NCBI RefSeq assembly: GCF_002572525.1
Contig: NZ_PDBS01000001.1
Location: 2,976,001-3,040,000 of the forward strand
DNA length: 64,000 nucleotides
Reading direction: 5' to 3'
Source of the DNA: Natrinema sp. CBA1119
GTDB lineage: Archaea > Halobacteriota > Halobacteria > Halobacteriales > Natrialbaceae
Under the pieces are notes generated by a model. It was not told where the DNA came from. It saw only the letters and a program-made list of their open reading frames with translations, and searched no databases. Shown in pieces: positions 9,265 to 28,939 of the stretch. The number at the start of each line of letters is the position of its first letter. Positions within the stretch are counted from its first letter, which is position 1. The translations under genes were made by a program, and so were the position numbers.

Positions 9265-10413
9265 TCAGCGGTCCGTCGACGCCTGTAGTTCCTGCAACCG
9301 TGTTACTGGCTCTACCCCAGCGAAGAGGACGACTGCAAAGACGGTGTCACGGTCCGGTTGCGGCGCGTCACCGGCGAGAATCATCGGTGATTCAATCGTG
9401 GCCTCGAGTTCAGTTCGTCCATCTGCAATCGCTTGACGGTTGAGCCACGCCGGCGGCCCACCAACGATTAGAAGTGCCTCTGTGGCGTTCGCCCGGTCAC
9501 ACTCAAGCGTGAGTGTGCGGTGGATCGCTTTCTGGATGACTGTTGTCATGGCACTGATCGCAGTCGTTGTTTCGACGGCTGTGTCAGACGAGAAGAGTCC
9601 AAGCCCGAACCGTGAGCCAGAAGCTGTGTTAATCGCTTGTTCGCCGTAGCCGAGTGTCGCGATTCCGGTTGTCTCTCCCAGAATCCGGTGGATGTCACTT
9701 GCATCGATGACTGTTTCGGCGCTCTGGTCGGGGGCAGTATCTCCAGCGCCGAAGAGGGCAAGTATTCGTGTTGAAAGCGTTTGGTTGAGACGTGTATACG
9801 CGTCGGGGATGGTGTCGGTAGACTGCAACCAGCGTTCGTTATCGAAACAGATGATCGCATCTGCATGGCCGTCAAGCTGCTCGAGCGTACGTGCTGTGTT
9901 CTTCTCTGCAAGTGGTCGGCTCGTGGAATCGGCAGTCGCTGCCTTGTTTGTGGGCGGCTCACTCACGTGATCGTTCTCTGTATTGTCTGTAGGTGAGAGT
10001 TCCCGCTTTGCGGGCAACGTTGCAAGAACATAGACTGGTTTCTCATATAGCCGTTGTAGATTCTTCACGACTGCAGGTACGGTGCCGCCACCCGTTGCGC
10101 CGCCGAGTCCGACGATTACGAGGAACGCATCGGCTACCGTTGGGTGGCCATCATCTAGTTGATGGCTGAGTTCGTCGACATGGCGCCCTCCGACTTCGAA
10201 TCCGGCCTGTAGATCGCCGTGCAGTCCACCGGTCGCAGTTCCACCGTATTGATGCCGAGTCATCCGCGGGTGAGGAGTGAGGTTCTGGAGACTCTCAGGA
10301 TCAGTATCGAACGCAAACGTGTCGCCAACAAACGAGTCCTGTGGGACGGTGGCACTGATTGTCTGCGCGATACGGCACCCTGCGCCACCGATACCGATCA
10401 ACTCAATTTTCAT
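9265..10413 (-). CDS. Divergent CetZ/FtsZ-superfamily GTPase
   Basis: A 382-aa second tubulin-superfamily protein. It starts MKIELIGIGGAGCRIAQ; the GTP-binding loop is GLGGATGGGT (102-111) instead of GGGTGSG, and T7 reads ETVIDASDIHRIL with Asp240 where CetZ1 has Glu218. Compared with the CetZ at 1166-2326 it has a polar insertion of about 35 residues (138-172, Thr/Glu/Asn-rich) after LATLPAKREL, and lacks the long C-terminal tail. It belongs to the CetZ-like branch but is clearly divergent. A small coiled-coil gene lies 27 nt upstream on the same strand, probably in one operon. Confidence 0.85.
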   Translation of the reverse strand: MKIELIGIGGAGCRIAQTISATVPQDSFVGDTFAFDTDPESLQNLTPHPRMTRHQYGGTATGGLHGDLQAGFEVGGRHVDELSHQLDDGHPTVADAFLVIVGLGGATGGGTVPAVVKNLQRLYEKPVYVLATLPAKRELSPTDNTENDHVSEPPTNKAATADSTSRPLAEKNTARTLEQLDGHADAIICFDNERWLQSTDTIPDAYTRLNQTLSTRILALFGAGDTAPDQSAETVIDASDIHRILGETTGIATLGYGEQAINTASGSRFGLGLFSSDTAVETTTAISAMTTVIQKAIHRTLTLECDRANATEALLIVGGPPAWLNRQAIADGRTELEATIESPMILAGDAPQPDRDTVFAVVLFAGVEPVTRLQELQASTDR

Positions 10414-10970: not shown

Positions 10971-11606
10971 ATGCCAAAAATCCGCCGCCTCAGTGGAGAT
11001 AGCGACTGGATCGATTTGAGTTTTGTGGAGCGAGAGCGGACACCGCGTCAGCTCATGGAGCTCGGTATTCGACTCCATCTTGCTGGTCTATCGCTTTCGA
11101 ATACCGTTCGAGAATTAGAGAAGTTCGGTGTCGAACGGAGTCGCAAGGCAGTCCACGATTGGGTCCACAAGTGCAATCTACAGCCAGCGGATGACGAGAA
11201 GCCGAATCACGTCGCACTTGACGAGACAGTGATTCAACTCGACGAACATCGGTATTGGCTGTACACTGCTGTCGATCCAGAAACGAACAAAATTCTCCAT
11301 ATACGGCTGTATTCAACGACTACGACCGCGTTGACAGAATGGTTCCTGCAGGAACTCACTGAGAAACACGATCTCGGCGATGCCGTGTTTCTCGTCGATG
11401 GAGCAAAACATCTCCAAACTGCACTCCGTCGAGCTGGGCTCCGATTTCGATACGAAAAACATGGAAATCGGAACGCTGTTGAGCGTATATTTCGTGAGAT
11501 AAAACGACGTACCTCTTCGTTTTCAAACTATTTCAGCCACGCAAAACCATCAACAGCAGAGTCGTGGCTCCAAGCCTTCGCCGTCTGGCACAATGCTACA
11601 AACTAA
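10971..11606 (+). CDS. IS6-family transposase (complete)
   Basis: A 211-aa transposase starting MPKIRRLSGDSDWIDLSFVE; a frame extension of four codons is not needed. It has an N-terminal HTH (NTVRELEKFGVERSRKAVHDW), then the compact IS6 DDE core: HVALDETVIQLDEHRYWLY (D1), DAVFLVDGAKHLQTAL (D2) and RNAVERIFREIKRRT (E). All three acidic residues are present. The IS ends are unclear; GGTGCTGTTTCGTTAAG near 10918 and GTTAACAACGAGCAGG near 11635 are weak inverted-repeat candidates. The insertion removed the 5' half of the DUF5305 gene that follows. Confidence 0.88.
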   Translation: MPKIRRLSGDSDWIDLSFVERERTPRQLMELGIRLHLAGLSLSNTVRELEKFGVERSRKAVHDWVHKCNLQPADDEKPNHVALDETVIQLDEHRYWLYTAVDPETNKILHIRLYSTTTTALTEWFLQELTEKHDLGDAVFLVDGAKHLQTALRRAGLRFRYEKHGNRNAVERIFREIKRRTSSFSNYFSHAKPSTAESWLQAFAVWHNATN

Positions 11607-11653
11607 ACACGACCATCGATACGGAGGGAACGGTTAACAACGAGCAGGTTGAC

Positions 11654-12193
11654 ATGTCCGAGAAACAGGATCTGTCCATATCGATTGACTCCGCGTTGTA
11701 CCGTGTCACGACACCGTCTGAACAGACAACACAGTACGGAGAGCAAACCAACTCAGTGACAGCAGTGTCCTCGACGCCAGCACCGTACCGTGTTGGCGGG
11801 CCACTCGCACTACTGATCGCTGTTGGTGGGCTGGGCAGCCTCGGATTCCTGCAATCGTCTGGGTGCTTGTCGTTGTCTGATTCAGAACTGATGTGGCTGG
11901 CGTTTCATGATGATAGGGAGGACTTCGACGACTGGATAACGACGATTAGGCTGCCAGACGAGGCATTCGACCGGCCGCGTGCAGAAGCTGATTCGCTCGC
12001 CAGTCTTGTCGACCTTGCAATCGACACGGACAACAGTGTCATCGAGGACCCGGATGAAGACGGGTACTACGTTATTCACGACGAGTATCTGTACACGTAC
12101 GTTCCGCCCGCAGCCGACAACGACTCACAAGACAGCGAGGCATCGTCAGAGACTGACGCAGTCGCGACAGTTACTGGATCGGACGGCGAATAG
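11654..12193 (+). pseudogene. DUF5305-type membrane protein, 5'-truncated by IS6 insertion
   Basis: The remaining 180 codons match the back half of the DUF5305 protein at 18750-19772: end of the extracytoplasmic domain, one TM helix (GPLALLIAVGGLGSLGFL), then a cytoplasmic domain with ASLVDLAIDTDNSVIEDPDE, which parallels GDLVDVAIDTNKRVIYDPDI in the intact copy. The signal segment and first 200 or so residues are missing because the IS6 transposase gene ends just upstream. A start at ATG 11654 is available but would give a protein without its export signal. It indicates that a second export module of the same kind once stood here. Confidence 0.6.
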
Positions 12194-15393: not shown

Positions 15394-15518
15394 CAACGCT
15401 CACGCGGAAACTGCTGGTCAGTGGCTCAGATCGTTCGCCTTCGCATGGAATCAGCTTATCTGAACACGATAGTTCTGGGGCGGTGAAGTTTTATGCGTAC
15501 AGGCTAGTTCTTGGGTGT

Positions 15519-16391
15519 ATGGGAGAGGACGAGAACGATGAGTCATCTCTATCCGAAGACTCTGAAGAAGAATCCTCATCACCCCTCTCTGAACTCGCGG
15601 ACCAGGTCACAAAAAGATCAAAGAACAGTTTGTTGGGCCCGGACAATAGTTCGAAACCACTGTCAGACCTAGCGGAGTCGGTACAGGAGCAACAGGGTTC
15701 AAGGGAAGATTTTGAGACGTTAGAAGATTCATCCGAGTGGGACCTCATCGACCAGTCTGCAGATTCGTCTAAACCCCGTGAAGCTGCTGACCCGAAGACC
15801 GAGGCGATACTCGAGTTAGTCGGTGATGCATCAAATGTTTTGGTCGTCGGACCTACGGACTGCGCCGCCGAACAAAGCCTTTGTTCAAGGATGATGGCTT
15901 CCCAAGCGAACACTGCGGTTAACCTACTGCTGGTAACGGTCAAACAGACACCAAGCGAACAGTTATCCATCCTCCAAAATTACCTGACGAATCCGGTCTC
16001 AAACACAGTCGTTATCGATCCCCAGACATACAGCACAAACAGATCCTCAAGTAACTACGATGGACCCGTCGATATCAAACCGGTTCCCAGTGCTACTGAC
16101 TTGCGCCGTATCGGGATCTTGATCAGTAAAGTACTCGTGAACTGGGAAGAAAATGATTCCCAGACAGTCATGTGTATACATTCGCTTTCCGACCTGATCG
16201 AGTTGGTGGATGATAATCAGCTAGTGTTCCGGTTCCTCCATGTCCTTCAGGGCCGTGTCGAGTCAGCGAAAGTGAGATCACATTACCATTTTGACCCTGA
16301 TCGTCACAACGAACAGGAAGTCAAAATGTTTTCATCGTTGTTTGATACAATTCTGACGTTTGATGAGGGCGGAAAGATCACGATGGAATAG
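15519..16391 (+). CDS. DUF7504-family (KaiC/RecA-like fold, no P-loop) protein
   Basis: A 290-aa protein with an acidic Ser/Glu-rich N-terminus (1-95) and a domain from about 105 on: ILELVGDASNVLVVGPTDC, then VVIDPQ, SATDLRRIGILISKVL, QTVMCIHSLSDLIELVDD and FRFLHVLQGRVESAKVRSHY, ending in YHFDPDRHNEQEVKMFSSLF. These landmarks match haloarchaeal DUF7504, a RecA/KaiC-like fold that lacks a Walker A motif and is often found near signalling genes. I chose ATG 15519 because the acidic N-terminus starts there; the frame opens 12 codons earlier. A second member lies at 28382-28939. Confidence 0.75.
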   Translation: MGEDENDESSLSEDSEEESSSPLSELADQVTKRSKNSLLGPDNSSKPLSDLAESVQEQQGSREDFETLEDSSEWDLIDQSADSSKPREAADPKTEAILELVGDASNVLVVGPTDCAAEQSLCSRMMASQANTAVNLLLVTVKQTPSEQLSILQNYLTNPVSNTVVIDPQTYSTNRSSSNYDGPVDIKPVPSATDLRRIGILISKVLVNWEENDSQTVMCIHSLSDLIELVDDNQLVFRFLHVLQGRVESAKVRSHYHFDPDRHNEQEVKMFSSLFDTILTFDEGGKITME

Positions 16392-16541
16392 CGAACCATA
16401 TTCATTTACTTGCAGATATATCTATAGGGACCAGCGCTTGCAGGACTCTTCTTCTCAAATATTCCAGAAACGGTGACTGATATCTGTTGTCTAATCAGAA
16501 CCGAAGCTACAAGGTGGTGATCCGTCAAAGATGACTCTAAC

Positions 16542-16904
16542 ATGGATTATCAACGGGTGTTAAACTTCTTTCAAAACCGTGGTGTCAACCAGTTCCGTGG
16601 AATGGCACAGTACAGCAAGGGTGACCTCTCGATCGAGTACTCCCGCGACGATAAATCCTTGAGGGTTCTACGTGCGTACTCTGATGATATACTTTTCCAA
16701 CGGGCGAAGGAAAATGTCCAACCAGGGCAGAGCCAAGGCATTCAGGAGGATCTCAACGCTGTGCTCCATTATTACTCCGACTGTCTGCTCATCCATTTAC
16801 TAGTCCAAGACGGTACCGGCATCATCGCCATCTTTGACCCATCCGTAGCCCCCGACACGTACAAGTTCATAGAGAAATCCCTTCAACTGGCCTCTAGTAA
16901 GTGA
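16542..16904 (+). CDS. Small soluble protein, DUF7522-like
   Basis: A 120-aa alpha/beta protein. It starts MDYQRVLNFFQNRGVNQFRG; the core reads LSIEYSRDDKSLRVLRAYSD then a helix and HYYSDCLLIHLLVQDGTGII and IFDPSVAP. The pattern (a Y-x-R-D-D strand, a helix, then a ligand-like strand ending in G-x-x-x-x-F/V-D) resembles haloarchaeal DUF7522 proteins, which have no known function. No membrane segment. It lies between the DUF7504 and HalOD1 genes on the same strand, so it probably belongs to the same signalling group. Confidence 0.6.
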   Translation: MDYQRVLNFFQNRGVNQFRGMAQYSKGDLSIEYSRDDKSLRVLRAYSDDILFQRAKENVQPGQSQGIQEDLNAVLHYYSDCLLIHLLVQDGTGIIAIFDPSVAPDTYKFIEKSLQLASSK

Positions 16905-17019
16905 AACGCTTGACACCGAACACTTTTTCGTTCAAAAGAAAATATGGGCCCTGGCCATTTCCACTGGCCATCGCCAAAAGATGACAAGGGTTTAAGAGGA
17001 AACATGCGTTAGTGCCTGT

Positions 17020-17328
17020 ATGGGGGAAAGCTACAGTCCAGTGTTGAGTCGCGACACGGAGATCCAGCGGGAATTTGATCCGGATAGTTCAGTCGGATAC
17101 GCCATTTTGGAGGCGATCGCCGAACTTGAAGGAGTCGATGCGACAAATTTATTGAAGGAACACAGCTTTGTTCTCTCCGACCACGTTGATGTTGACGCAC
17201 TCAATTCCCTGATTGATACCGGATCCAGCACGGAAGTCAGGATCAGGGCCGACGATTATGTGATAACGGTCGCCCACGACGTGGTCCATGTAGCAAGGAC
17301 CGAACCGGATGGAACACTAGGCCTGTGA
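17020..17328 (+). CDS. HalOD1 output-domain protein
   Basis: A 102-aa protein that is a single HalOD1 domain: SVGYAILEAIAELEGVDATN, LSDHVDVDALNSLID, then VRIRADDYVITVAHDVVHV. HalOD1 is a haloarchaeal output domain proposed to act downstream of two-component signals; stand-alone copies are common. It could receive the signal of the kinase at 13341, since no classical response regulator is present (inference). Start at ATG 17020, a short AT-rich stretch upstream. Confidence 0.8.
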   Translation: MGESYSPVLSRDTEIQREFDPDSSVGYAILEAIAELEGVDATNLLKEHSFVLSDHVDVDALNSLIDTGSSTEVRIRADDYVITVAHDVVHVARTEPDGTLGL

Positions 17329-17440
17329 ACTGCCTCTGGGCTTGACACCAAGATGCCGGCCTGTTCCGCGTGTAGAGGGATGAGGAGAAGTTCCCAAGGT
17401 TGGTCCCTTCAGTATTGAATTTTTACAGATAGGATGATAG

Positions 17441-18613
17441 TCAGTCATCATTCCATTCGAATCCTTGTTCTTCCTCACCGCGATCATCTTCTTCTTCATC
17501 TTGGGTGAGGTCATTAAGATCTCCGAACGGCATGTCTTCACTCGCCTGATCTTCTGGTACGGGGCTCTGAGATTTATCTTCGGAGCCGAGGTCAAGTGAG
17601 AGGTCTGACGGATCATCTGCATCTGAACCGTTATCCATCACATCCTTCGAAGCGGTCTGCGAGGACAAATCCGGCTGTTTCGAGCCGGTTTCCTGAGGGG
17701 AGTGGTTATCCAACTCTTCTCTGAGGTCATCTCGAGACGGCTTATTAGAAGAACTGGATCGTGAATTCCCCTTGTCTGTTTGGGGCTGTTTTTCGGGGCC
17801 TCCTTTCGTAGTGATCACTGTCTTTGAGAGGATCCACCAGGCTGCTTCCTTTTTCACGCCGGTCAACTGTGAATGACACTGTGAGCAGTGCGGGTCCATT
17901 AGTAAGGCGACATCGATTGCTGTCCCACAGGTTTCGCATTCCCCGGTATATGATCCGACGTCACTGGCATCCTGTTTCAGCTTTTGCAAAAGCTTCTGCT
18001 CTTCCTCTATCAGCTCTACCGTCCCGTAGTAATCTTGTTTGATGTTTGCTATTTGATCGTCGAACTCATCGGTTTTTTCAACCAAGAACTTGAGTATAGT
18101 TTGAAGATCATCGAACTTTGAGGAGAGGTCTGCTTCCAGGTTTTTCCTATCGGAGGTTAGCTCTGTTTCGAGTGACTGGAGCTCATCCCTAATTTCAGTT
18201 ATCTGGGATTCGGACTGGGATTCGACCTCAGCGAGCTTGTTTTCTATCTCAGATATCCGTTCTGCAAGTGTACTGGTCCTGGCCCCGATCTGGTTGCTTC
18301 GGCGAACCTCTGTTTGAAGCTCCTTCTCTATATCCTTGACCAGTTCACGGAGTTCTGTCACCTGATCGGGAGCACTTCCAGCTTTGTCCGACGTTGTGGA
18401 CGGCGGACCGGTTCTGCTGGATGGTCCGTGGTTCGTGTCGGTCTCATCCACCAGTTGAGACATTTCGTTTACTGTCCAGTATGACGATATCAGCTTCTGA
18501 AACAGTTCTTCCTTAGAGACCCCTTCAGAGACGGCTTGTTGGTCTATCCACTCCTCAAGTGAGTTGGAGGATGGGAAGCCATCGTTCTGGTCAGTTGGGT
18601 CCCGAGTCATCAA
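17441..18613 (-). CDS. Long coiled-coil protein with zinc ribbon
   Basis: A 390-aa soluble protein. Residues 10-55 (LEEWIDQQAVSEGVSKEELF then LISSYWTVNEMSQLV) look like an RHH/helical N-domain found in a common haloarchaeal family. About 80-225 is an uninterrupted coiled coil. Residues 230-260 hold a zinc ribbon, CETCGTAIDVALL-(x)-HCSQC. The last 110 residues are acidic, Ser/Asp/Glu-rich and probably disordered. It runs opposite to its neighbours on both sides. The family is widespread in haloarchaea; I know of no proven function. A role as a scaffold or regulator in this cassette is a guess. Confidence 0.75.
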   Translation of the reverse strand: MMTRDPTDQNDGFPSSNSLEEWIDQQAVSEGVSKEELFQKLISSYWTVNEMSQLVDETDTNHGPSSRTGPPSTTSDKAGSAPDQVTELRELVKDIEKELQTEVRRSNQIGARTSTLAERISEIENKLAEVESQSESQITEIRDELQSLETELTSDRKNLEADLSSKFDDLQTILKFLVEKTDEFDDQIANIKQDYYGTVELIEEEQKLLQKLKQDASDVGSYTGECETCGTAIDVALLMDPHCSQCHSQLTGVKKEAAWWILSKTVITTKGGPEKQPQTDKGNSRSSSSNKPSRDDLREELDNHSPQETGSKQPDLSSQTASKDVMDNGSDADDPSDLSLDLGSEDKSQSPVPEDQASEDMPFGDLNDLTQDEEEDDRGEEEQGFEWNDD

Positions 18614-18749
18614 AGGTAACTGAGTAAGTATACTTGACCTCTCGCGTGGCTAGGACAAAAGTTTTGTTGTAAGCCACGAAACTCCGGCTACAGTGACCAT
18701 CGTTGTTTCAACTCCCAACTAATATTCTTCAATTTAGCTTTAGTATATA

Positions 18750-19772
18750 ATGCCTCTCGAGAACCGTATTAAACTGTTTGTGAATCAAAATAGCCGGACA
18801 GTGATCGTGGTCTTAGCGGTTGCTGGAATCCTTTTCTTGGTCGGTGCAGGGTACGTGTTTACCAATCCAGCGACAGGGACGGTCACCGAAGATACAAACC
18901 AACAACAGGTGAGTACAGATGTCTCGACCAGAGCGTTCGTGAGCGGGGAGTCTTCCCTCTATGAACAGGATCTGTGGATAGAAAACCGGTCGGCCTATTT
19001 CATATCATCCGCACCAGAGCTCACTCTCGACCTAAATACAACCGTTCCACTGGACCAAGAGGTGACTGTTTCACATGAGCTGGAGATGGAAACTGTTGGT
19101 CTTCGGGACGGACAGCCGTTCCATAGCTCCGTAGAAACACTGCTCAGTTCGAACTACACGGTTACAAACGGGTCCGTCAACTCATCTACGACGATAGATG
19201 TAGAACAGCTCCGTGAAGACATACAGACAAAGGAATCGGAGACACAGGGGGTCGGTCAGTTCGAAATTCGGCTACGGATGAACACGACATATTCAACAGA
19301 TGACTATGACGGCTCACTCACAGCGACAACCCCTCTAGTTATCTCCGGGGAAGCATACTACCTCGGTGGCAGCCTAAGCGAAAGTCGTACACACTCCACG
19401 GTGGTACAGAGAACTGTTCAGCAGCCATCCAGTCCGCTTGTCTATGGAGGGCTCTCAGTGCTCTCTTTGATCCTTTTCGGCCTATGTGGCGTAGTGAACA
19501 GTTTAAAGGACAGTATCAATTCGGAACGGATGAGGACACAGATAATCCACAGTCGCCATGATGAGTGGATCTCACGGGGAGAGTTCCCCACAAATTCGGA
19601 TCGACAGTACATATCTATTCTAACCTTGGGTGACCTCGTGGACGTCGCCATCGATACCAACAAACGTGTTATTTACGACCCAGACATCGAGACGTATGCA
19701 GTGATCGACACCGAGGAGATCTACTACTACGCAATCGACAGGGAGAGTACCGACAACTGGCTAGATATCTGA
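18750..19772 (+). CDS. DUF5305 membrane protein with large outer domain
   Basis: A 340-aa protein with an N-terminal TM or signal anchor (19-39, VIVVLAVAGILFLVGAGYVF), an outer domain of about 190 residues rich in Asn/Ser/Thr beta strands with several N-glycosylation sequons, a second TM helix (about 231-249) and a cytoplasmic tail with LTLGDLVDVAIDTNKRVIYD. This is the DUF5305 layout, repeatedly seen beside SipW-type peptidases and DUF1102 proteins in haloarchaea. I infer a membrane assembly or anchoring role for the secreted DUF1102 subunits. A truncated paralogue lies at 11654-12193. Confidence 0.85.
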   Translation: MPLENRIKLFVNQNSRTVIVVLAVAGILFLVGAGYVFTNPATGTVTEDTNQQQVSTDVSTRAFVSGESSLYEQDLWIENRSAYFISSAPELTLDLNTTVPLDQEVTVSHELEMETVGLRDGQPFHSSVETLLSSNYTVTNGSVNSSTTIDVEQLREDIQTKESETQGVGQFEIRLRMNTTYSTDDYDGSLTATTPLVISGEAYYLGGSLSESRTHSTVVQRTVQQPSSPLVYGGLSVLSLILFGLCGVVNSLKDSINSERMRTQIIHSRHDEWISRGEFPTNSDRQYISILTLGDLVDVAIDTNKRVIYDPDIETYAVIDTEEIYYYAIDRESTDNWLDI

Positions 19773-19803
19773 TAGGAAGTGTCGTCTGCTGCACCGCCCC
19801 TTC

Positions 19804-20334
19804 TCAAGGAGGCTTCTCGAAGTTCTCGAGATTCTGCTTATGGTTCAGATACGCATGACATGATGCTGAAATCAACATGATGCCCACAATCAGGGTTGGG
19901 TACACAAGGGTGGGAACTGGATCCGTTGGAAGGATATCTATCCAGAGAGCCGCCATCACAACGAAAGCGAGAGAGGAAAGGCCGAGATAGTATATACTCC
20001 AGGGAATCGAATTCTCGGGGACAAAATCCAGGTAAATACTGATTTTATCTATCTCATCGGTAAGCTCTATCACCCCGTTCGACTCAGTTAAGACGCCGGC
20101 CCTCTCCAAACGTGGTATATGTGTCTGCTGAAGGGAGGTGTACACCGTCTTACGTTGGTCTGAGGTGAGTTCCTCAATCTTCTTGTCCTGCTCCCAAGCC
20201 GCAACCTGTTCGGCAAGATCGGAAAGCGTGACAGCCTCACCAGTTCTTTTGCAGTAATGGATTACGTAGCGTCGGCGCTGGCTGCTCATCAGATCAAATA
20301 TTTCGTTTTTCGGAAGCTTCTCACCAGTTCCCAT
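19804..20334 (-). CDS. DUF7344 winged-helix membrane regulator
   Basis: A 176-aa protein starting MGTGEKLPKNEIFDLMSSQR (an ATG 11 codons upstream is less likely). The N-terminal winged helix carries QRRRYVIHYCKR and LSDLAEQVAAWE, then RKTVYTSLQQTHIPRLERAG, the DUF7344 signature. Two TM helices follow (about 122-141 and 146-166). A DNA-binding domain tethered to the membrane suggests that it senses envelope state and controls the export genes around it. It runs convergently with the DUF5305 gene and in the same direction as the three DUF1102-type genes. Confidence 0.8.
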   Translation of the reverse strand: MGTGEKLPKNEIFDLMSSQRRRYVIHYCKRTGEAVTLSDLAEQVAAWEQDKKIEELTSDQRKTVYTSLQQTHIPRLERAGVLTESNGVIELTDEIDKISIYLDFVPENSIPWSIYYLGLSSLAFVVMAALWIDILPTDPVPTLVYPTLIVGIMLISASCHAYLNHKQNLENFEKPP

Positions 20335-20495
20335 ACTCCCCCTTCCTTCGAATCGTTCCCCCTCCATCAGTCACTTCGAAATCAAAGTGTTGGCCTAATA
20401 TAGATACCGACCATACCTGAAGTTTGGTTGTTCTCTCCCTGAATACAGAAGTGGACAAGATTCTGTACAGACAGAAGGGGACTATAAGACGTGTA

Positions 20496-21098
20496 CTACT
20501 CGAGACTCACAGAGAGTGTGATATCGAAGTCTGTTTGACTTGGATAGAGTTCGATTGAACTCGGGCCTATACTGGAGATGAGGTTGACCTGTAAGCCGAA
20601 AGGGATTGCTTCGCCCGGTGAAAGCAGTCCATCAACGGCGTTACCGTGGTCACTTTTGGCCAGAAGATTGTCTCCGTTATCTACTCCCCCGGATTCAAGC
20701 GTCTTGTCCGCAGCTGTTACTTGAAGTGAGTTTTCGATTTCTGTGAGTTCTTGGTTCGTGAGAGTACTGCTTGTGGCGTTGAATGAGAAGTAGATACTGT
20801 CTATCCTTCTGGAACTTACGTTCGAGATCAATACTATGTCTTCAAAACGAGTGATCGCCTTCTGTGTCAGGCCTTCCCCGTCTCCGCCAGGCGCAATAGC
20901 GGTCACTCGGCTCTGACTATCTGTTTGGACATGGATCGGCGGGTCGTTAGCCGGAACCAGCTCCAACGAACTATGTGATACGACACGGAAATCCGCAGAT
21001 GCGGATGAGTTCTCGGTGAATGAGGCAGCTGCACCTATAACACCGCCTCCGATGAACAGGCCACCGGTACCAAGGATCATCTTCCTACGTGTTGTCAT
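20496..21098 (-). CDS. Secreted DUF1102/TasA-like protein (1)
   Basis: A 200-aa exported protein. The signal starts MTTRRKMILGTGGLFIGGGV and ends near AASFTENSSASA; the RR is Tat-like, and the region just after the hydrophobic core is where SipW-type peptidases cut TasA-like proteins. The mature part is beta-rich: ADFRVVSHSSLELVPAND, TRFEDIVLISNVSSRRIDSI (the conserved F/L-x-D-I/V-x-x-I/V-x-N-x-S strand of DUF1102), and GLLSPGEAIPFGLQVNLI. It lacks a C-terminal anchor. The most divergent of the three. Confidence 0.72.
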   Translation of the reverse strand: MTTRRKMILGTGGLFIGGGVIGAAASFTENSSASADFRVVSHSSLELVPANDPPIHVQTDSQSRVTAIAPGGDGEGLTQKAITRFEDIVLISNVSSRRIDSIYFSFNATSSTLTNQELTEIENSLQVTAADKTLESGGVDNGDNLLAKSDHGNAVDGLLSPGEAIPFGLQVNLISSIGPSSIELYPSQTDFDITLSVSLE

Positions 21099-21127
21099 TC
21101 TTCAATTACCTGGATGTAAGATGGTCT

Positions 21128-21835
21128 TCACCTTGTCTGTTCTACTTCCGCAGTCACTTCCTCAATCAGTTGAACCGACCGAGACCGGTTACTTCCACCG
21201 ACATTGCCGAATACGTTGTCAGACAGCTCTTCATGCAGACCGGGGACATCGTTTCTCGTAGTATTGGTCTCCAGCCCGATAGTGAAGCTTTCACCCTGCA
21301 TTATCCCTACCGTGTCCGCCGGCTCCCCTTGAGTATCACCTTCAGGATCCGGCGAGAGAAGCGTTCCATCGGAGACCAGTTGAAATACCTCACATGCATC
21401 CCTAGCGCTGAGATTCGTCCCTGAGTCTTCACGTAAAAGATCAGGGAAACTATAGCCGAAACCGACATCAAAGCGGGTTTCCCGGTCTGAATTATTCGTT
21501 ATCTTGAATAATTTTTCAAAGGTATAATTTCTCCCAAGGCCGACAACGACCTGAACCGTAACCATCTCTCCATCGCTGCCTGAAACGTATATCTGGGGTA
21601 GATCGGAGACATTCGGCGACGATCCACCGAACATGCCGCCATCCTCAATGCTGACGTTGTCACCATACTCGTCCTCTCCAAAAAGTTGGATAGTCAGGCT
21701 GGCCTGCGGAGCCACCACCGGGAAACTGGAATCTGAGCCACGGCTTCTGGCCACGTCCACAGCGCCAGTACCAAGCGCCGCACCCGAACCGGCGGCGAAC
21801 AATGCCAATCCGACCACCACATTACGGCGTTTCAT
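21128..21835 (-). CDS. Secreted DUF1102/TasA-like protein (2)
   Basis: A 235-aa exported protein with a Tat-like start (MKRRNVVVGLALFAAGSGAA). The mature part reads FPVVAPQASLTIQLFGEDEY, then FEKLFKITNNSDRETRFDVG, which is the DUF1102/TasA I-x-N-x-S-x-x strand pair, and MQGESFTIGLETNTTRNDVP near the end. The extra segment 125-190 (Cys-containing loop, LLREDSGTNLSARDACEVF) makes it longer than typical DUF1102 proteins. It follows the third copy (21906-22484) by 70 nt and precedes copy 1 by 29 nt, all on one strand. Confidence 0.72.
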   Translation of the reverse strand: MKRRNVVVGLALFAAGSGAALGTGAVDVARSRGSDSSFPVVAPQASLTIQLFGEDEYGDNVSIEDGGMFGGSSPNVSDLPQIYVSGSDGEMVTVQVVVGLGRNYTFEKLFKITNNSDRETRFDVGFGYSFPDLLREDSGTNLSARDACEVFQLVSDGTLLSPDPEGDTQGEPADTVGIMQGESFTIGLETNTTRNDVPGLHEELSDNVFGNVGGSNRSRSVQLIEEVTAEVEQTR

Positions 21836-21905
21836 ATCTTAGAGATTTCCCATTCTTCCCCACAAGCGATAGAGTATTTGTAGACATATAGGAGAGATTG
21901 TAGTA

Positions 21906-22484
21906 TTAGTTAGCGACGATAGTTAGATCGCCGGTACTCGCACCCGGATCGTCTAAAGTGTCATCAGTTGTACCAATCTCAATATCAAGGTATACTGAGT
22001 CACCAGATCCCACATTTATAGTGCTACCACTACCAATAGAGTTATCGCCAGATTTTCCGACATAGAAGGTTACAACAGCCTCATTATTATTCCCATCCTG
22101 CAGAAGCAAGGAAGCCTCCCCATAAGCTGTCGGATCGTTACTCGCCCCTTCTGGGGAGACACCTACTGTCGTGGATTCTCCATCAGCTGAATTATTTGTG
22201 ATTTCCACTACGTCTTCAAGCGTGATTATCGCGTTTTGGTTAAATCCCCCGTCCTCGCCTTCAGGCCCCCCAAGGTCAATCGTCAGTGTCTCACCATTAT
22301 CAGCATTAGTCACATAAGAGCTATTACCGGTGATAGTAAGATAAGCGCTGTTGTCACCAGCTGTATTTACATCAACAGACCGTTCGGCGCTAGCTGTTGA
22401 AAACGCGCCCGTGCTCATGAGGAGACCGCCTCCCCCAACTATTCCTCCGAGTCCGATTAATACGTTGCGTCTACTGAGTACCAT
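21906..22484 (-). CDS. Secreted DUF1102/TasA-like protein (3), canonical copy
   Basis: A 192-aa protein that is the clearest DUF1102 member: SRRNVLIGLGGIVGGGGLLM, then STGAFSTASAERSVDVNTAG with the GAF-S-(x)-AER-(x)-V motif, AYLTITGNSSYVTN, and LEDVVEITNNSADGESTTVG. It is acidic and Asn/Gly/Ser-rich with no anchor, like fibre subunits. The N-terminal strand right after the cleavage region would be the donor strand in a TasA/AbpA-type fibre (inference). First gene of the three-gene run, so likely the major subunit. Confidence 0.82.
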   Translation of the reverse strand: MVLSRRNVLIGLGGIVGGGGLLMSTGAFSTASAERSVDVNTAGDNSAYLTITGNSSYVTNADNGETLTIDLGGPEGEDGGFNQNAIITLEDVVEITNNSADGESTTVGVSPEGASNDPTAYGEASLLLQDGNNNEAVVTFYVGKSGDNSIGSGSTINVGSGDSVYLDIEIGTTDDTLDDPGASTGDLTIVAN

Positions 22485-22564
22485 TGTTCTGATTTGGTTT
22501 TGACACAGGTAGTACTGTGTTCCTAACCTGTTAATGAACTCCTACCCACTTTGTATTTTCCAGC

Positions 22565-22737
22565 TTGAAAGACTTCTCGCCAGGCTTTCCTGTCAGAAAG
22601 CCCGGCTTGAATCCGATTCTATATAAAAAGGGAGTAGCGTACACGCAAATATCTCCTGATTTAACTCCGATGTTGTGAACTATCCTGTCCCCTCGCTTGC
22701 CGCTAATGCGGTTCGCTCCTTGAGGAAGGCGACTCCT
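22565..22737 (+). repeat. Remnant IS200/605 hairpin and right-end scar
   Basis: The DNA between the DUF1102 gene and the divergent sipW (22485-22881) holds a hairpin GGCTTTCCTGTCAGAAAGCC at about 22581-22600 and, from 22675, GTGAACTATCCTGTCCCCTC, another orphan tnpB-end scar. Beyond that lies the sipW promoter (CGTTTTATCAC around 22842). No gene is seen. Confidence 0.45.
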
Positions 22738-22881
22738 CGAAAGACGTTGAACCGACTCAGGGTCGAGCCTCGAGACACCTTGTTCATCTATAGAGCTGGT
22801 TACAGAGTCGAAAAGCTGTTTTCCATATTGCCTCTCTGATAACGCGTTTTATCACTGTCCAGTACTATGGTACAGTGAGAA

Positions 22882-24042
22882 GTGAAATTCAGCGATATCA
22901 TTCAGTATACTGTGTTAATACTGATTTTCCTAGCGGTGGCTGCCTTATTTTTCGGTCAGGCCCTTGGACAGCCTGTTCTTCTTGGCTATGTGGAGACCGG
23001 TAGCATGGAACCCAAACTCGAGCCAGGAGATGGATTCATTGCTGTTCCAACTGCCTTGACAGGTCCACCTGAGTCTGGAGACGTCGTTGTCTTTAACGCC
23101 GAGGAGCTACAGGGAGGGGGGTTGACCACACACCGTGTCGTCGATCAAACAGAGGAGGGGTATATCACCCAGGGTGATGCGAATGCATTCACGGATCAAG
23201 ATGGCCCTGAGCCGCCGGTTTCGGAGTCTCAAATCGTTGCGAAGGCGTTACAGTTTAACGGCGGGATCGTCGTTATTCCAAACCTTGGATCCGGTGTTTT
23301 AGCAATCCAGGGCGTGATATCAGGTATTGTTGCGGTTTTTGTAGGAGTTCCAGGGCTGGGAGATTTGGTCAACGGTGAGTTTTCTCCGAGGGCATTGGTA
23401 GTTGTCGGAGGTTTACTTATCGTAGTCAATTTGGTAGCGGACTCTCTTACAGGGAATCGGAAGAGAGAAAACCATAGCCGTCGACGTCGCGGATACTATA
23501 CTTCTGGAATGATTTTTCTTATCATAGCAATTGTCATTATCGCTCCCGCAACGGCTAGTATGGTGCTGGGGTCCGGTTCAAACAGCCTTGACATTGTTAG
23601 TTCGGAATCACCCAACGATAACCCGCTTGTTGTGCCCGAAGGAGAAACATCGACGATTGAGTACCAGGTGAGCAATGACGGGTATATTCCCATGATGACC
23701 GTTCTCGAGACGGATAATCAGGATATTTCATTTTCAAAATCGGTTGTCAGTCTTTCCCCTCGTTCGGAAGAAACGATCGGCCTGACGATACAGGCACCAG
23801 CAGAGACCGGTGCATATAGTAGGGATGTCTCCCAGCACCGTTATCTACCGTTTCTACCCCGTTCAGTTATTCTTGCACTGCATGAAATACACCCGCTTCT
23901 GGCTGTTGCGGCAGTGAACTCTGTACTGCTTGTTGGGGCACTTAGTCTCGGTATTGTCACTATCGGGTTTGACTCTGTCCGTCTCCGTTCGGCCAGTCGA
24001 AACATCTCGTTCCTCGAAAAGCTGAAGAGACGATTCCTGTGA
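22882..24042 (+). CDS. sipW: ER/SipW-type signal peptidase I with C-terminal extra domain
   Basis: A 386-aa serine peptidase of family S26B. Start is GTG (MKFSDIIQYT). The first TM helix is at 9-26. Catalytic Ser41 sits in ETGSMEPKLEPGD and His84 in TTHRVVDQ; the His instead of Lys marks the ER/SipW type. The third box is ITQGDANAFTDQD (Asp99/105). After three more TM segments (about 118-145, 171-186, 206-228) comes an outer beta domain (235-325, EGETSTIEYQVSNDGYIPMM) and a last TM (about 340-365). Such peptidases process TasA/camelysin-like fibre subunits. It is divergent from the DUF1102 genes and convergent with the beta-solenoid gene. Confidence 0.88.
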   Translation: MKFSDIIQYTVLILIFLAVAALFFGQALGQPVLLGYVETGSMEPKLEPGDGFIAVPTALTGPPESGDVVVFNAEELQGGGLTTHRVVDQTEEGYITQGDANAFTDQDGPEPPVSESQIVAKALQFNGGIVVIPNLGSGVLAIQGVISGIVAVFVGVPGLGDLVNGEFSPRALVVVGGLLIVVNLVADSLTGNRKRENHSRRRRGYYTSGMIFLIIAIVIIAPATASMVLGSGSNSLDIVSSESPNDNPLVVPEGETSTIEYQVSNDGYIPMMTVLETDNQDISFSKSVVSLSPRSEETIGLTIQAPAETGAYSRDVSQHRYLPFLPRSVILALHEIHPLLAVAAVNSVLLVGALSLGIVTIGFDSVRLRSASRNISFLEKLKRRFL

Positions 24043-24098
24043 CATCCTCTTTGCCCTCAACGGGCTTTCTCCTTGAATCCCCGTAACAGCCAAGATTG

Positions 24099-25667
24099 TT
24101 ATCCAGGTGTGACTTGACCGGTCTCCGGTGTTCCGTTAACAGTTACACTGTTTGGGCTGTAAACCAGGTTGTTGTCGTTGTCCTCAATCAAAGCTCCATC
24201 AACTTCTAATGTCGACGAACCATTGTTGAGGGCTACCGTTGCTTCCCCGTAGTCAGTCCTGATTTCCGAGTTGTTCAACAGGAGATTTTCTACGGAGCTA
24301 ACTGTTACTTCGGCATCGGTTTCAAAAACCGTGTTTGACGCATCAAGGTCTGCCGCGGAGATCACTTCGATATTACTGTAGTCTGAGGTCAGTAATGCGT
24401 CTACCATGCTGATCGACTCGGCATCCGATTCTACCGTTATCGAGGATTCAGTTTCCAGCGAGGCTTTGTTAGCAGTAACCGAGCCGCCTGTAATCGTGAT
24501 TTCGCCGCTCTTTGAGGAAATAGTTCCCTGACTGATACCAACCGGTCCTGAATCACCGGTAAGCGTTATCTGTTCATCTGTTTCAACGGTGGCTCCAGCG
24601 GCACTGACGGAACCTCCATTGATGTCTATTGATCCATAGTCCGAATTTATATTCGCATTGTCGAGGTTCAGATCTGCTTCCGTGGAAACTTCGATCGAAC
24701 TCTCAGTATCTATCTGTACGTCTTCCGCGTCAACAGAGACAGCTGAAACCTCTACTTCCCCGTATCTCGAGTTCAAAGTACTCCCGGTTAAATCGACTGT
24801 TCCAGAATCTCCCGTTACGGTGATCGCAGAATCTGTTAGTATTTCCGAGTTGGTGGACGTAACGGAATCGGCCTCTAACTCGATCTCCCCGTAGTTAGAT
24901 CTCACCGTGGATTCCTCAAGGTGTATTCCCCCGTCCTCTGCCGAAATAGATATATCGCTGTCGCTTTCGAGTTCTGTTCCATAGACAGTAACCGATTTTG
25001 CTTCGATCTCTACTTCTTGATACCCATAGAAGATGGTTTCACCGGAGCTAACAACCAGGTTCGCCGAATCATCGTCGAATGACCTCAGCTCCGATCTGTC
25101 AAGGACCTCCTCGTTTTCATCGTACACGCTGTTATCGTTGCTGTCGATAAACGCAACGCTGTTCTCCGGTAGGTCTCCGCCTTCGCCCGGCGGTCCACCG
25201 GGTTTGCCCGGACAGTCATAATTTACAGACGCTTCTAACGTCGCTTCGGAAAGGGTAGTGCCATCGGCCTCCGCCTCATGGACAGTGACGGTCAATGTGG
25301 CAGTCCCGCTCCCACCGTTTGGAGGAGCACAAGTAGCTCGGATGGCCTGGTTGCTACCCTGGCTTATTGTAACAGACTCAGATGGCTCCTCTAAGGACAC
25401 TGCATCGGAGTCGATACTGGCTTCGTACGAGACGGTCAGGCTTGAGTCAAAGTTGTTCCTGATCTCCGCCACTCGGACGGCTTTGGTCGGATGGTTGACT
25501 TCAATCCCTGTTTCATGCATGCCAAGAAACGCATTGCCGTCGTCAGCGAGAGAGATGTCGACCGGGCGGTCACCCCCAATAGAGCTGAAGCTGCCGGTGG
25601 GCACAGCAAAAAGACCGACACCAACCACCATTAGGGCAAGTCCGACGTAAAGTAACAGGCGTGCCAT
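24099..25667 (-). CDS. Secreted TasA-like N-domain fused to 43-residue beta-solenoid repeats
   Basis: A 522-aa protein. A hydrophobic signal (4-22) is followed by GSFSSIGGDRPVDISLADDG, which resembles the processed N-terminus of DUF1102 proteins, and a beta domain to about 152. A Gly/Pro linker (153-165) and a region with DSNDNSVYDENEE (possible calcium site) lead to about six tandem repeats of 42-44 residues (215-480), each opening YGEIEL/YGSIDI-like and containing a T-(E/D)-(S/T) ... I-T-V strand. The repeats would stack as a right-handed beta-helix. There is no membrane anchor. It is acidic throughout. Function unknown; adhesin or fibre-tip role is inferred from context. Confidence 0.8.
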   Translation of the reverse strand: MARLLLYVGLALMVVGVGLFAVPTGSFSSIGGDRPVDISLADDGNAFLGMHETGIEVNHPTKAVRVAEIRNNFDSSLTVSYEASIDSDAVSLEEPSESVTISQGSNQAIRATCAPPNGGSGTATLTVTVHEAEADGTTLSEATLEASVNYDCPGKPGGPPGEGGDLPENSVAFIDSNDNSVYDENEEVLDRSELRSFDDDSANLVVSSGETIFYGYQEVEIEAKSVTVYGTELESDSDISISAEDGGIHLEESTVRSNYGEIELEADSVTSTNSEILTDSAITVTGDSGTVDLTGSTLNSRYGEVEVSAVSVDAEDVQIDTESSIEVSTEADLNLDNANINSDYGSIDINGGSVSAAGATVETDEQITLTGDSGPVGISQGTISSKSGEITITGGSVTANKASLETESSITVESDAESISMVDALLTSDYSNIEVISAADLDASNTVFETDAEVTVSSVENLLLNNSEIRTDYGEATVALNNGSSTLEVDGALIEDNDNNLVYSPNSVTVNGTPETGQVTPG

Positions 25668-28381: not shown

Positions 28382-28939
28382 CTAGTCCGTTTCGAGAACG
28401 GTGTCGAACAGGTACGTGAGACTCGTCACGGTCTGCGGATCGTGGGCCGTGGGATCGATGAAGTAGAACGCGGTGGCACCTGTGCGCTCGATGCGAGCGG
28501 TGAGGATGTGGAGAAATCTAAACACCCGCTCGAAGTCGCTGGCGTGGATCAACGACGTGACCGAATCGAACCAGAGCTCCACCGGAGCGTCGTGATCGCG
28601 CCGTGAGAGTAATTCACTGATCTCGATTCCGAGACCAGTCAAGTCGCTCCGATTGACCGCACTCAGCTGTCCGGTATGCCTCTCAGTCACGTCAGGATGT
28701 ACCGGTGAACCGTGATTCATCTCACTGACTGAAATTATATCTATCCTCGAGGAGCAGGAGTCGCTGGTCTGTCGGCAATCGAGAATCGTCGATGGCGGAT
28801 GACGAGTCGAAATGACCACTTTCGGCGCGGCTCGGTCGGACGGTCGCACGCGCTCGAGATACAAGGGGATCTCCCCCTCGTCCGGCAGTGGGCCAAGCAG
28901 TAATCGATTCGATCCCCGCTCCGAAGTACCCCCATCCAT
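28382..28939 (-). CDS. Short DUF7504-family protein
   Basis: A 185-aa protein of the same family as 15519-16391: SNRLLLGPLPDEGEIPLYLE, then RSDLTGLGIEISELLSRRDH, WFDSVTSLIHASDFERVFRF, LHILTARIERTGATAFYFID and LTYLFDTVLETD. The order D-L-x-x-L-G-I, D-S-(V/L)-T-(x)-L and F-R-F-L-H-(I/V)-L matches. It lacks the long acidic N-terminus of its neighbour and has no P-loop. It stands alone between a MITE and a tnpB element. Confidence 0.7.
   Translation of the reverse strand: MDGGTSERGSNRLLLGPLPDEGEIPLYLERVRPSDRAAPKVVISTRHPPSTILDCRQTSDSCSSRIDIISVSEMNHGSPVHPDVTERHTGQLSAVNRSDLTGLGIEISELLSRRDHDAPVELWFDSVTSLIHASDFERVFRFLHILTARIERTGATAFYFIDPTAHDPQTVTSLTYLFDTVLETD

Follow-up and report, generated by a model that had tools for sequence, protein, structure and literature searches.

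The locus and its genes

The haloarchaeon Natrinema sp. CBA1119 carries a cluster of nine genes, considered here as a candidate locus for surface fibres of the twin-arginine translocation (Tat) type, within a window of 64,000 nt from contig NZ_PDBS01000001.1. The window is the whole stretch of DNA that was analyzed, and its positions serve as coordinates below. An earlier note on this DNA had described, between 18750 and 25667, seven intact genes in a region full of broken ones: three consecutive secreted proteins labeled DUF1102-type, a divergent ER/SipW-type signal peptidase, a DUF5305 membrane protein, a DUF7344 winged-helix membrane protein and a repetitive secreted protein. All seven open reading frames (ORFs) are open and intact at those places, the Pfam matches listed in Table 1 bear out the DUF5305 and DUF7344 assignments, and the rightmost gene does encode a repetitive protein with an export signal. 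The disrupted surroundings were also found, with transposases nearby and, directly following one transposase gene, a truncated DUF5305 gene (11564-12193) left over from another locus of this kind; a further DUF7504 protein fragment (28382-28939) lies among transposase remnants. The cluster is longer than had been described and spans 15483-25667, owing to the genes of a DUF7504 protein and of a zinc-ribbon coiled-coil protein on its left. These two syntenic genes had been overlooked, as had the Tat motifs and a related locus elsewhere in this genome. The names PilX, PilY and PilZ are labels given in this analysis to the three small proteins.

Table 1. Genes of the cluster in window coordinates
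Gene product	Position	Strand	Properties
DUF7504 protein	15483..16391	+	302 aa, no transmembrane (TM) segment; left end of syntenic cluster; Pfam DUF7504 E 2.4e-36
Acidic coiled-coil protein	17441..18613	-	390 aa; Cys4 zinc-ribbon-like motif (C226, C229, C243, C246); coiled-coil-type matches
DUF5305 membrane protein	18750..19772	+	Pfam E 3.7e-44; two TM helices, beta-rich extracytoplasmic domain, cytoplasmic C-terminal part
DUF7344 winged-helix protein	19804..20367	-	Pfam E 1.2e-26; about two C-terminal hydrophobic (membrane) segments
PilX, predicted Tat-signal pilin	20496..21098	-	200 aa; RR in 12/12 relatives; most diagnostic subtype member
PilY, predicted Tat-signal pilin	21128..21835	-	235 aa; RR in 12/12 relatives; TafA signal-region match 6e-5
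PilZ, predicted Tat-signal pilin	21906..22484	-	192 aa; NCBIfam TafE 4e-16, TafA 1.7e-9
SipW-type S26 signal peptidase (Ser-His-Asp)	22882..24042	+	TIGR02228 over cut-off; C-terminal membrane and extracytoplasmic extension
TafC-like repetitive exported protein	24099..25667	-	522 aa; NCBIfam TafC 1.7e-13

Pilins, peptidase and their linkage

The three small proteins are consecutive and carry export signals, in line with the earlier description. Their DUF1102 label was rejected, since none of the three matched this or any other Pfam family even at E<=10; DUF1102 was also absent among the Pfam matches of nine PilZ homologues. The affinities of these proteins lie elsewhere. In haloarchaea, thin surface appendages called Tat-fimbriae or tafi include components exported by the Tat system, with TafA as core component (PMC12687288), and the tafi publication cited there is that of Galeva et al. 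(iScience 2025;28:111793). PilZ matches the TafE and TafA models below their curated cut-offs (59 of 155 bits and 38 of 190 bits, respectively), and the TafA match of PilY, confined to the signal region, is likewise under the cut-off. Profile-profile comparison links PilX to PilY (E 5e-11), PilX to PilZ (E 3e-7) and PilY to PilZ (E 5e-9), which identifies them at the sequence level as mutually homologous. A profile built from the nine PilZ homologues had a sole match in the PDB, entry 9p0a (E 6e-25), entitled 'Structure of Natrinema sp. J7-2 Tafi pilus', and PilX had no match among solved structures by sequence. Of the three, PilZ lies closest to TafE/TafA and 9p0a and probably makes up the main part of the shaft.

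Modeled with AlphaFold2, PilZ is all-beta, with a predicted template-modeling score (pTM) of 0.66 and a mean predicted local distance difference test score (pLDDT) of 69, falling below 50 over the first 33 residues, a stretch that takes in the signal region. The fold check proposed in the earlier note was run with this model and returned solved filament subunits: Foldseek ranked 9p0a first (E 3e-5) and 7ueg, the Pyrobaculum bundling pilus, second. VIA-align gave Z scores of 8.6 for 9p0a (3.1 A over 124 residues), 7.7 for 7ueg, 6.4 for the Sulfolobus thread (7pnb) and about 6 for FimA, the FimA and Csu pilins ranking after the thread and mixed with unrelated beta-sandwiches. A VIA-align Z score near 8 is weak by itself, and the profile match to 9p0a is the stronger evidence.

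A twin-arginine (RR) motif is present in the n-region of PilX, PilY and PilZ in all 12 clusters of the subtype described below (36/36 orthologues), which points to export by the Tat pathway. PilZ shares with the TafC-like protein a TG(A/S)FS box situated ahead of an acidic/arginine segment, and cleavage would take place inside the TG(A/S)F box and leave an N-terminal donor strand. The TafC-like protein itself reaches 50 of the 410 bits of the curated TafC cut-off. Its signal is of the Sec type and lacks RR, yet carries the box in the form TGSFS; its N-terminal domain contains two Cys, and its repeat region, beta-solenoid-like by our reading, varies in length or is missing between species in the alignment.

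The peptidase had been described as carrying Ser41 and His84. In addition to TIGR02228 it matches the SipW model NF046067 at 4e-9, and Ser41, His84 and Asp105 are kept in 77 of 78 relatives; it is thus an S26 enzyme with a Ser-His-Asp instead of a Ser-Lys arrangement. Related peptidase genes are also carried by haloarchaeal plasmids.

Whether these genes occur together at random, a possibility raised in the earlier note, was examined in 40 DUF5305 neighborhoods from the window's own family, with 20 regions at fixed arbitrary coordinates as controls. Because the neighborhoods were picked by DUF5305, which is present in 58 of the 61 genomes of this family, the counts measure what accompanies DUF5305. 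In 38/40 neighborhoods pilins are present and a same-strand peptidase gene lies no more than 600 bp away, and TafC and DUF7344 occur in 24/40 and 26/40, respectively. The peptidase, pilin, TafC and DUF5305 profiles matched none of the 20 controls, and the linkage of peptidase, pilins and DUF5305 is far above chance. The DUF7344 profile matched 6/20 controls, too commonly to serve as a marker gene, and was rejected as such. The idea of a fibre system of the TasA/archaeal bundling pilus type with its own SipW-type peptidase is supported by this linkage and by the fold matches of PilZ; neither the fold check nor the co-occurrence check refuted it.

Structural comparison of the other proteins was less informative. 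The DUF5305 model has a pLDDT of 74.7, with ectodomain blocks mostly at 80-94; its fold matches are common beta-sandwiches (transglutaminase, RbmA and arrestin-like; Z 7-9.6) and were set aside as uninformative. The DUF7504 profile had no match in the PDB; a resemblance to a degenerate KaiC-like P-loop protein is only our own reading.

A subtype with its own gene content, and its origin

Full-length orthologues of PilX, with 45-51% identity, were found in 11 genomes of another family, belonging to Haloferax (marinum, marisrubri, sp. Q22, prahovense, gibbonsii, profundi) and Halobellus (clavatus, captivus, rufus); a contig scan returned nothing with a single-sequence query and gave matches with an alignment-based one. 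The genes for DUF5305, DUF7344, PilX, PilY, PilZ, the peptidase and TafC are all present in 11/11 of these clusters, which show two gene arrangements related by inversion. The coiled-coil gene and the adjoining DUF7504 gene are found in 10 of them, the eleventh ending at a contig edge with a trace of the coiled-coil gene. The coiled-coil profile matched none of 40 Natrialbaceae-type loci, none of 20 controls and none of the Haloarcula-type loci; DUF7504 occurs in 2/40 loci of the window's own family, 0/20 controls and 0/20 Haloarcula-type loci. Diverged DUF7504 homologues are also found in Halorubrum-type clusters. A third arrangement (L114-L118, L120 and L121, mostly Halorubrum-type) places DUF7344 among two or three pilins of the PilX/PilY type and includes diverged coiled-coil and DUF7504 genes. 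Genes for CetZ tubulin-like proteins lie in the window at 1166-2374 and 9265-10413, and five Haloferax loci likewise have a CetZ-like gene (about 30% identity) close to the cluster.

The canonical loci provide the reference for this gene content. Loci with a pilin over the TafA cut-off occur in 22 of 292 Halobacteria genomes. One of them (L149) has the order DUF5305, TafF, TafE, TafA, DUF7344 protein, TafC and SipW-type peptidase; its TafA, TafC, TafE and TafF are all over the NCBIfam cut-offs, its TafC carries RR, and its neighborhood is near-identical in Haloarcula amylolytica (L220; L166). From this order and from the name tafABCDEF, the DUF7344 gene is presumably the counterpart of tafB and the peptidase gene that of tafD. 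TafF, in these loci a pilin-like protein of the Sec type with membrane segments at its C-terminus, gave 19 profile matches in the 20 loci retrieved by way of TafA (16 strong, 3 weak), whereas no full-length TafF-profile match was obtained in any of the 12 window-type clusters. The earlier statement that no haloarchaeal system of such composition had been characterized does not stand: these Haloarcula-type loci have the same parts, tafi have been published, as cited in PMC12687288, and 9p0a is in the PDB. The claim gives way to a named, recently solved system. The new part is a subtype with conserved gene content (three linked pilins, no TafF, DUF7504 and coiled-coil genes), conserved synteny and its own peptidase clade. 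In a tree of 78 peptidase sequences the window-type clade (n=12) has support 99/100 and the Haloarcula-type clade (n=15) support 100/99.

The same genome holds a second intact tafi-like locus with a TafF-like protein (L012, 5994-15539; G000:C1:1878993-1888539), whose peptidase groups with its own genus, apart from the window-type clade. Between TafC/DUF7344 and the pilin this locus encodes an 878-aa protein of the von Willebrand type, with an N-terminus resembling an archaeal type IV pilin signal. Elsewhere in the genome, an orphan TafC-like protein with an RR signal (L013, 6691-8264; G000:C1:422691-424264) adjoins a DUF7344 gene and is accompanied by neither peptidase nor pilins. The guanine-plus-cytosine (GC) content is 49.5% in the cluster, 58% in L012, 60-70% in most of the window beyond 30 kb and 56-65% in the Haloferax/Halobellus versions. 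Low GC, surrounding insertion sequence (IS) elements and nearest relatives in another family make it likely that the cluster was acquired horizontally. The peptidase identity of 54-58% to the Haloferax/Halobellus relatives and the GC difference argue against a recent acquisition from such donors.

Interpretation and comparison with known fibre systems

We read the cluster, with a probability of roughly 0.82, as a complete Tat-fimbria (tafi-type) cluster of a distinct subtype, standing beside the genome's other tafi-like locus and working as follows. PilX, PilY and PilZ would take on their fold in the cytoplasm before being carried across the membrane by Tat, in keeping with their RR motifs. 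The dedicated peptidase, with its conserved triad, would then cut at the TG(A/S)F box behind the hydrophobic core and free an N-terminal strand, starting at about F28 in PilZ. This strand would slot into the groove of the neighboring jelly-roll subunit, and donor-strand exchange of the kind seen in the Pyrobaculum bundling pilus would thereby extend the fibre, to judge from the fold. PilZ would form most of the shaft, PilX and PilY being probably minor, tip or base subunits; TafC would probably sit at the tip or side and face outward. Since the subtype is without TafF, the growing base would probably be held by the two-TM DUF5305 protein, acting as anchor or assembly platform, or by the extension of the peptidase. 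DUF7344 is probably a transcription regulator; for the soluble DUF7504 protein and the zinc-ribbon coiled-coil protein, a role inside the cell in controlling production or placement is probable.

Several observations weigh against this reading: no protein exceeds a TafA, TafC or TafE curated cut-off, confidence in the PilZ model is no more than moderate, Z scores near 8 approach those of unrelated beta-sandwiches, and the match between TafC and PilZ spans the signal box only. The parts in common (TafA/E-type pilins, DUF7344, TafC, peptidase, DUF5305) could indicate plain canonical tafi as in the Haloarcula tafABCDEF loci, rearranged and diverged, with the DUF7504 and coiled-coil genes as bystanders. 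We consider this improbable, given the supported separate peptidase clades, the absence of TafF from 12/12 clusters, scores far under the cut-offs, and two supposed bystanders that are syntenic in 10/11 related clusters and absent from 20 Haloarcula-type loci. The low-GC, IS-rich setting, the truncated DUF5305 and transposases nearby and the other intact tafi-like locus in the host would suit a decayed island remnant whose acquired genes are silent in their present host. With nine open ORFs and with catalytic residues, RR motifs and export boxes intact, such decay appears unlikely.

SipW-type peptidases of Bacillus process non-fibre proteins too, and the RR proteins might accordingly remain unpolymerized, as cell-surface or S-layer-associated matrix proteins processed by such an enzyme and akin to monomeric camelysin-like proteins. 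This we judge very improbable: the top match in both sequence and fold is a solved pilus subunit (9p0a), and three linked homologous subunits with TafC resemble shaft and minor subunits. The Haloarcula homologues, moreover, are fimbrial as cited in PMC12687288.

Going beyond the preferred tafi-type reading, the cluster could represent a separate fibre class, Tat-exported and assembled by donor strands from several pilins, without TafF, with a DUF5305 platform and cytoplasmic control by DUF7504 and the coiled-coil protein, spread horizontally among haloarchaea and kept beside an ordinary tafi-like locus; this more ambitious proposal is tentative and rather doubtful at present. The subtype, as defined by its gene content, synteny and tree, raises the questions of which element stands in for TafF, whether assembly takes place on DUF5305 and why a single genome retains two sets of fimbrial genes. 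Among its close relatives are several Haloferax, a genus in which gene deletion is routine.

Compared with known systems, the cluster is closest to tafi, with which it shares a grouping of RR-signal jelly-roll pilins related to TafA/TafE, a TafC-like protein, a DUF7344 gene, a SipW-type peptidase and DUF5305. It differs from Haloarcula tafABCDEF in its three linked pilins, its lack of a TafF-profile match, its additional DUF7504 and coiled-coil genes, its Sec-type instead of Tat-type TafC signal, its gene order and its own clade. No Taf cut-off is reached; on sequence grounds the cluster is tafi in the broad sense and not a tafABCDEF equivalog cluster.

The resemblance to the Pyrobaculum bundling pilus (7ueg) lies in the predicted fold of PilZ, a jelly-roll subunit matching solved donor-strand filaments, whereas identity is 8% and the organisms and gene cluster are others; we know of no Tat signals in that pilus. 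The TasA/TapA-SipW biofilm system of Bacillus subtilis similarly links a dedicated SipW-type peptidase to jelly-roll subunits, but no sequence match to TasA was found, that system is without DUF5305, TafC and DUF7504, and to our knowledge TasA is not Tat-exported. Donor-strand assembly of TasA is reported in PMC9674648. Chaperone-usher pili (FimA, Csu) share the fold class and the donor-strand principle with the present cluster, which has no chaperone or usher genes, would use another export route and belongs to an archaeal host.

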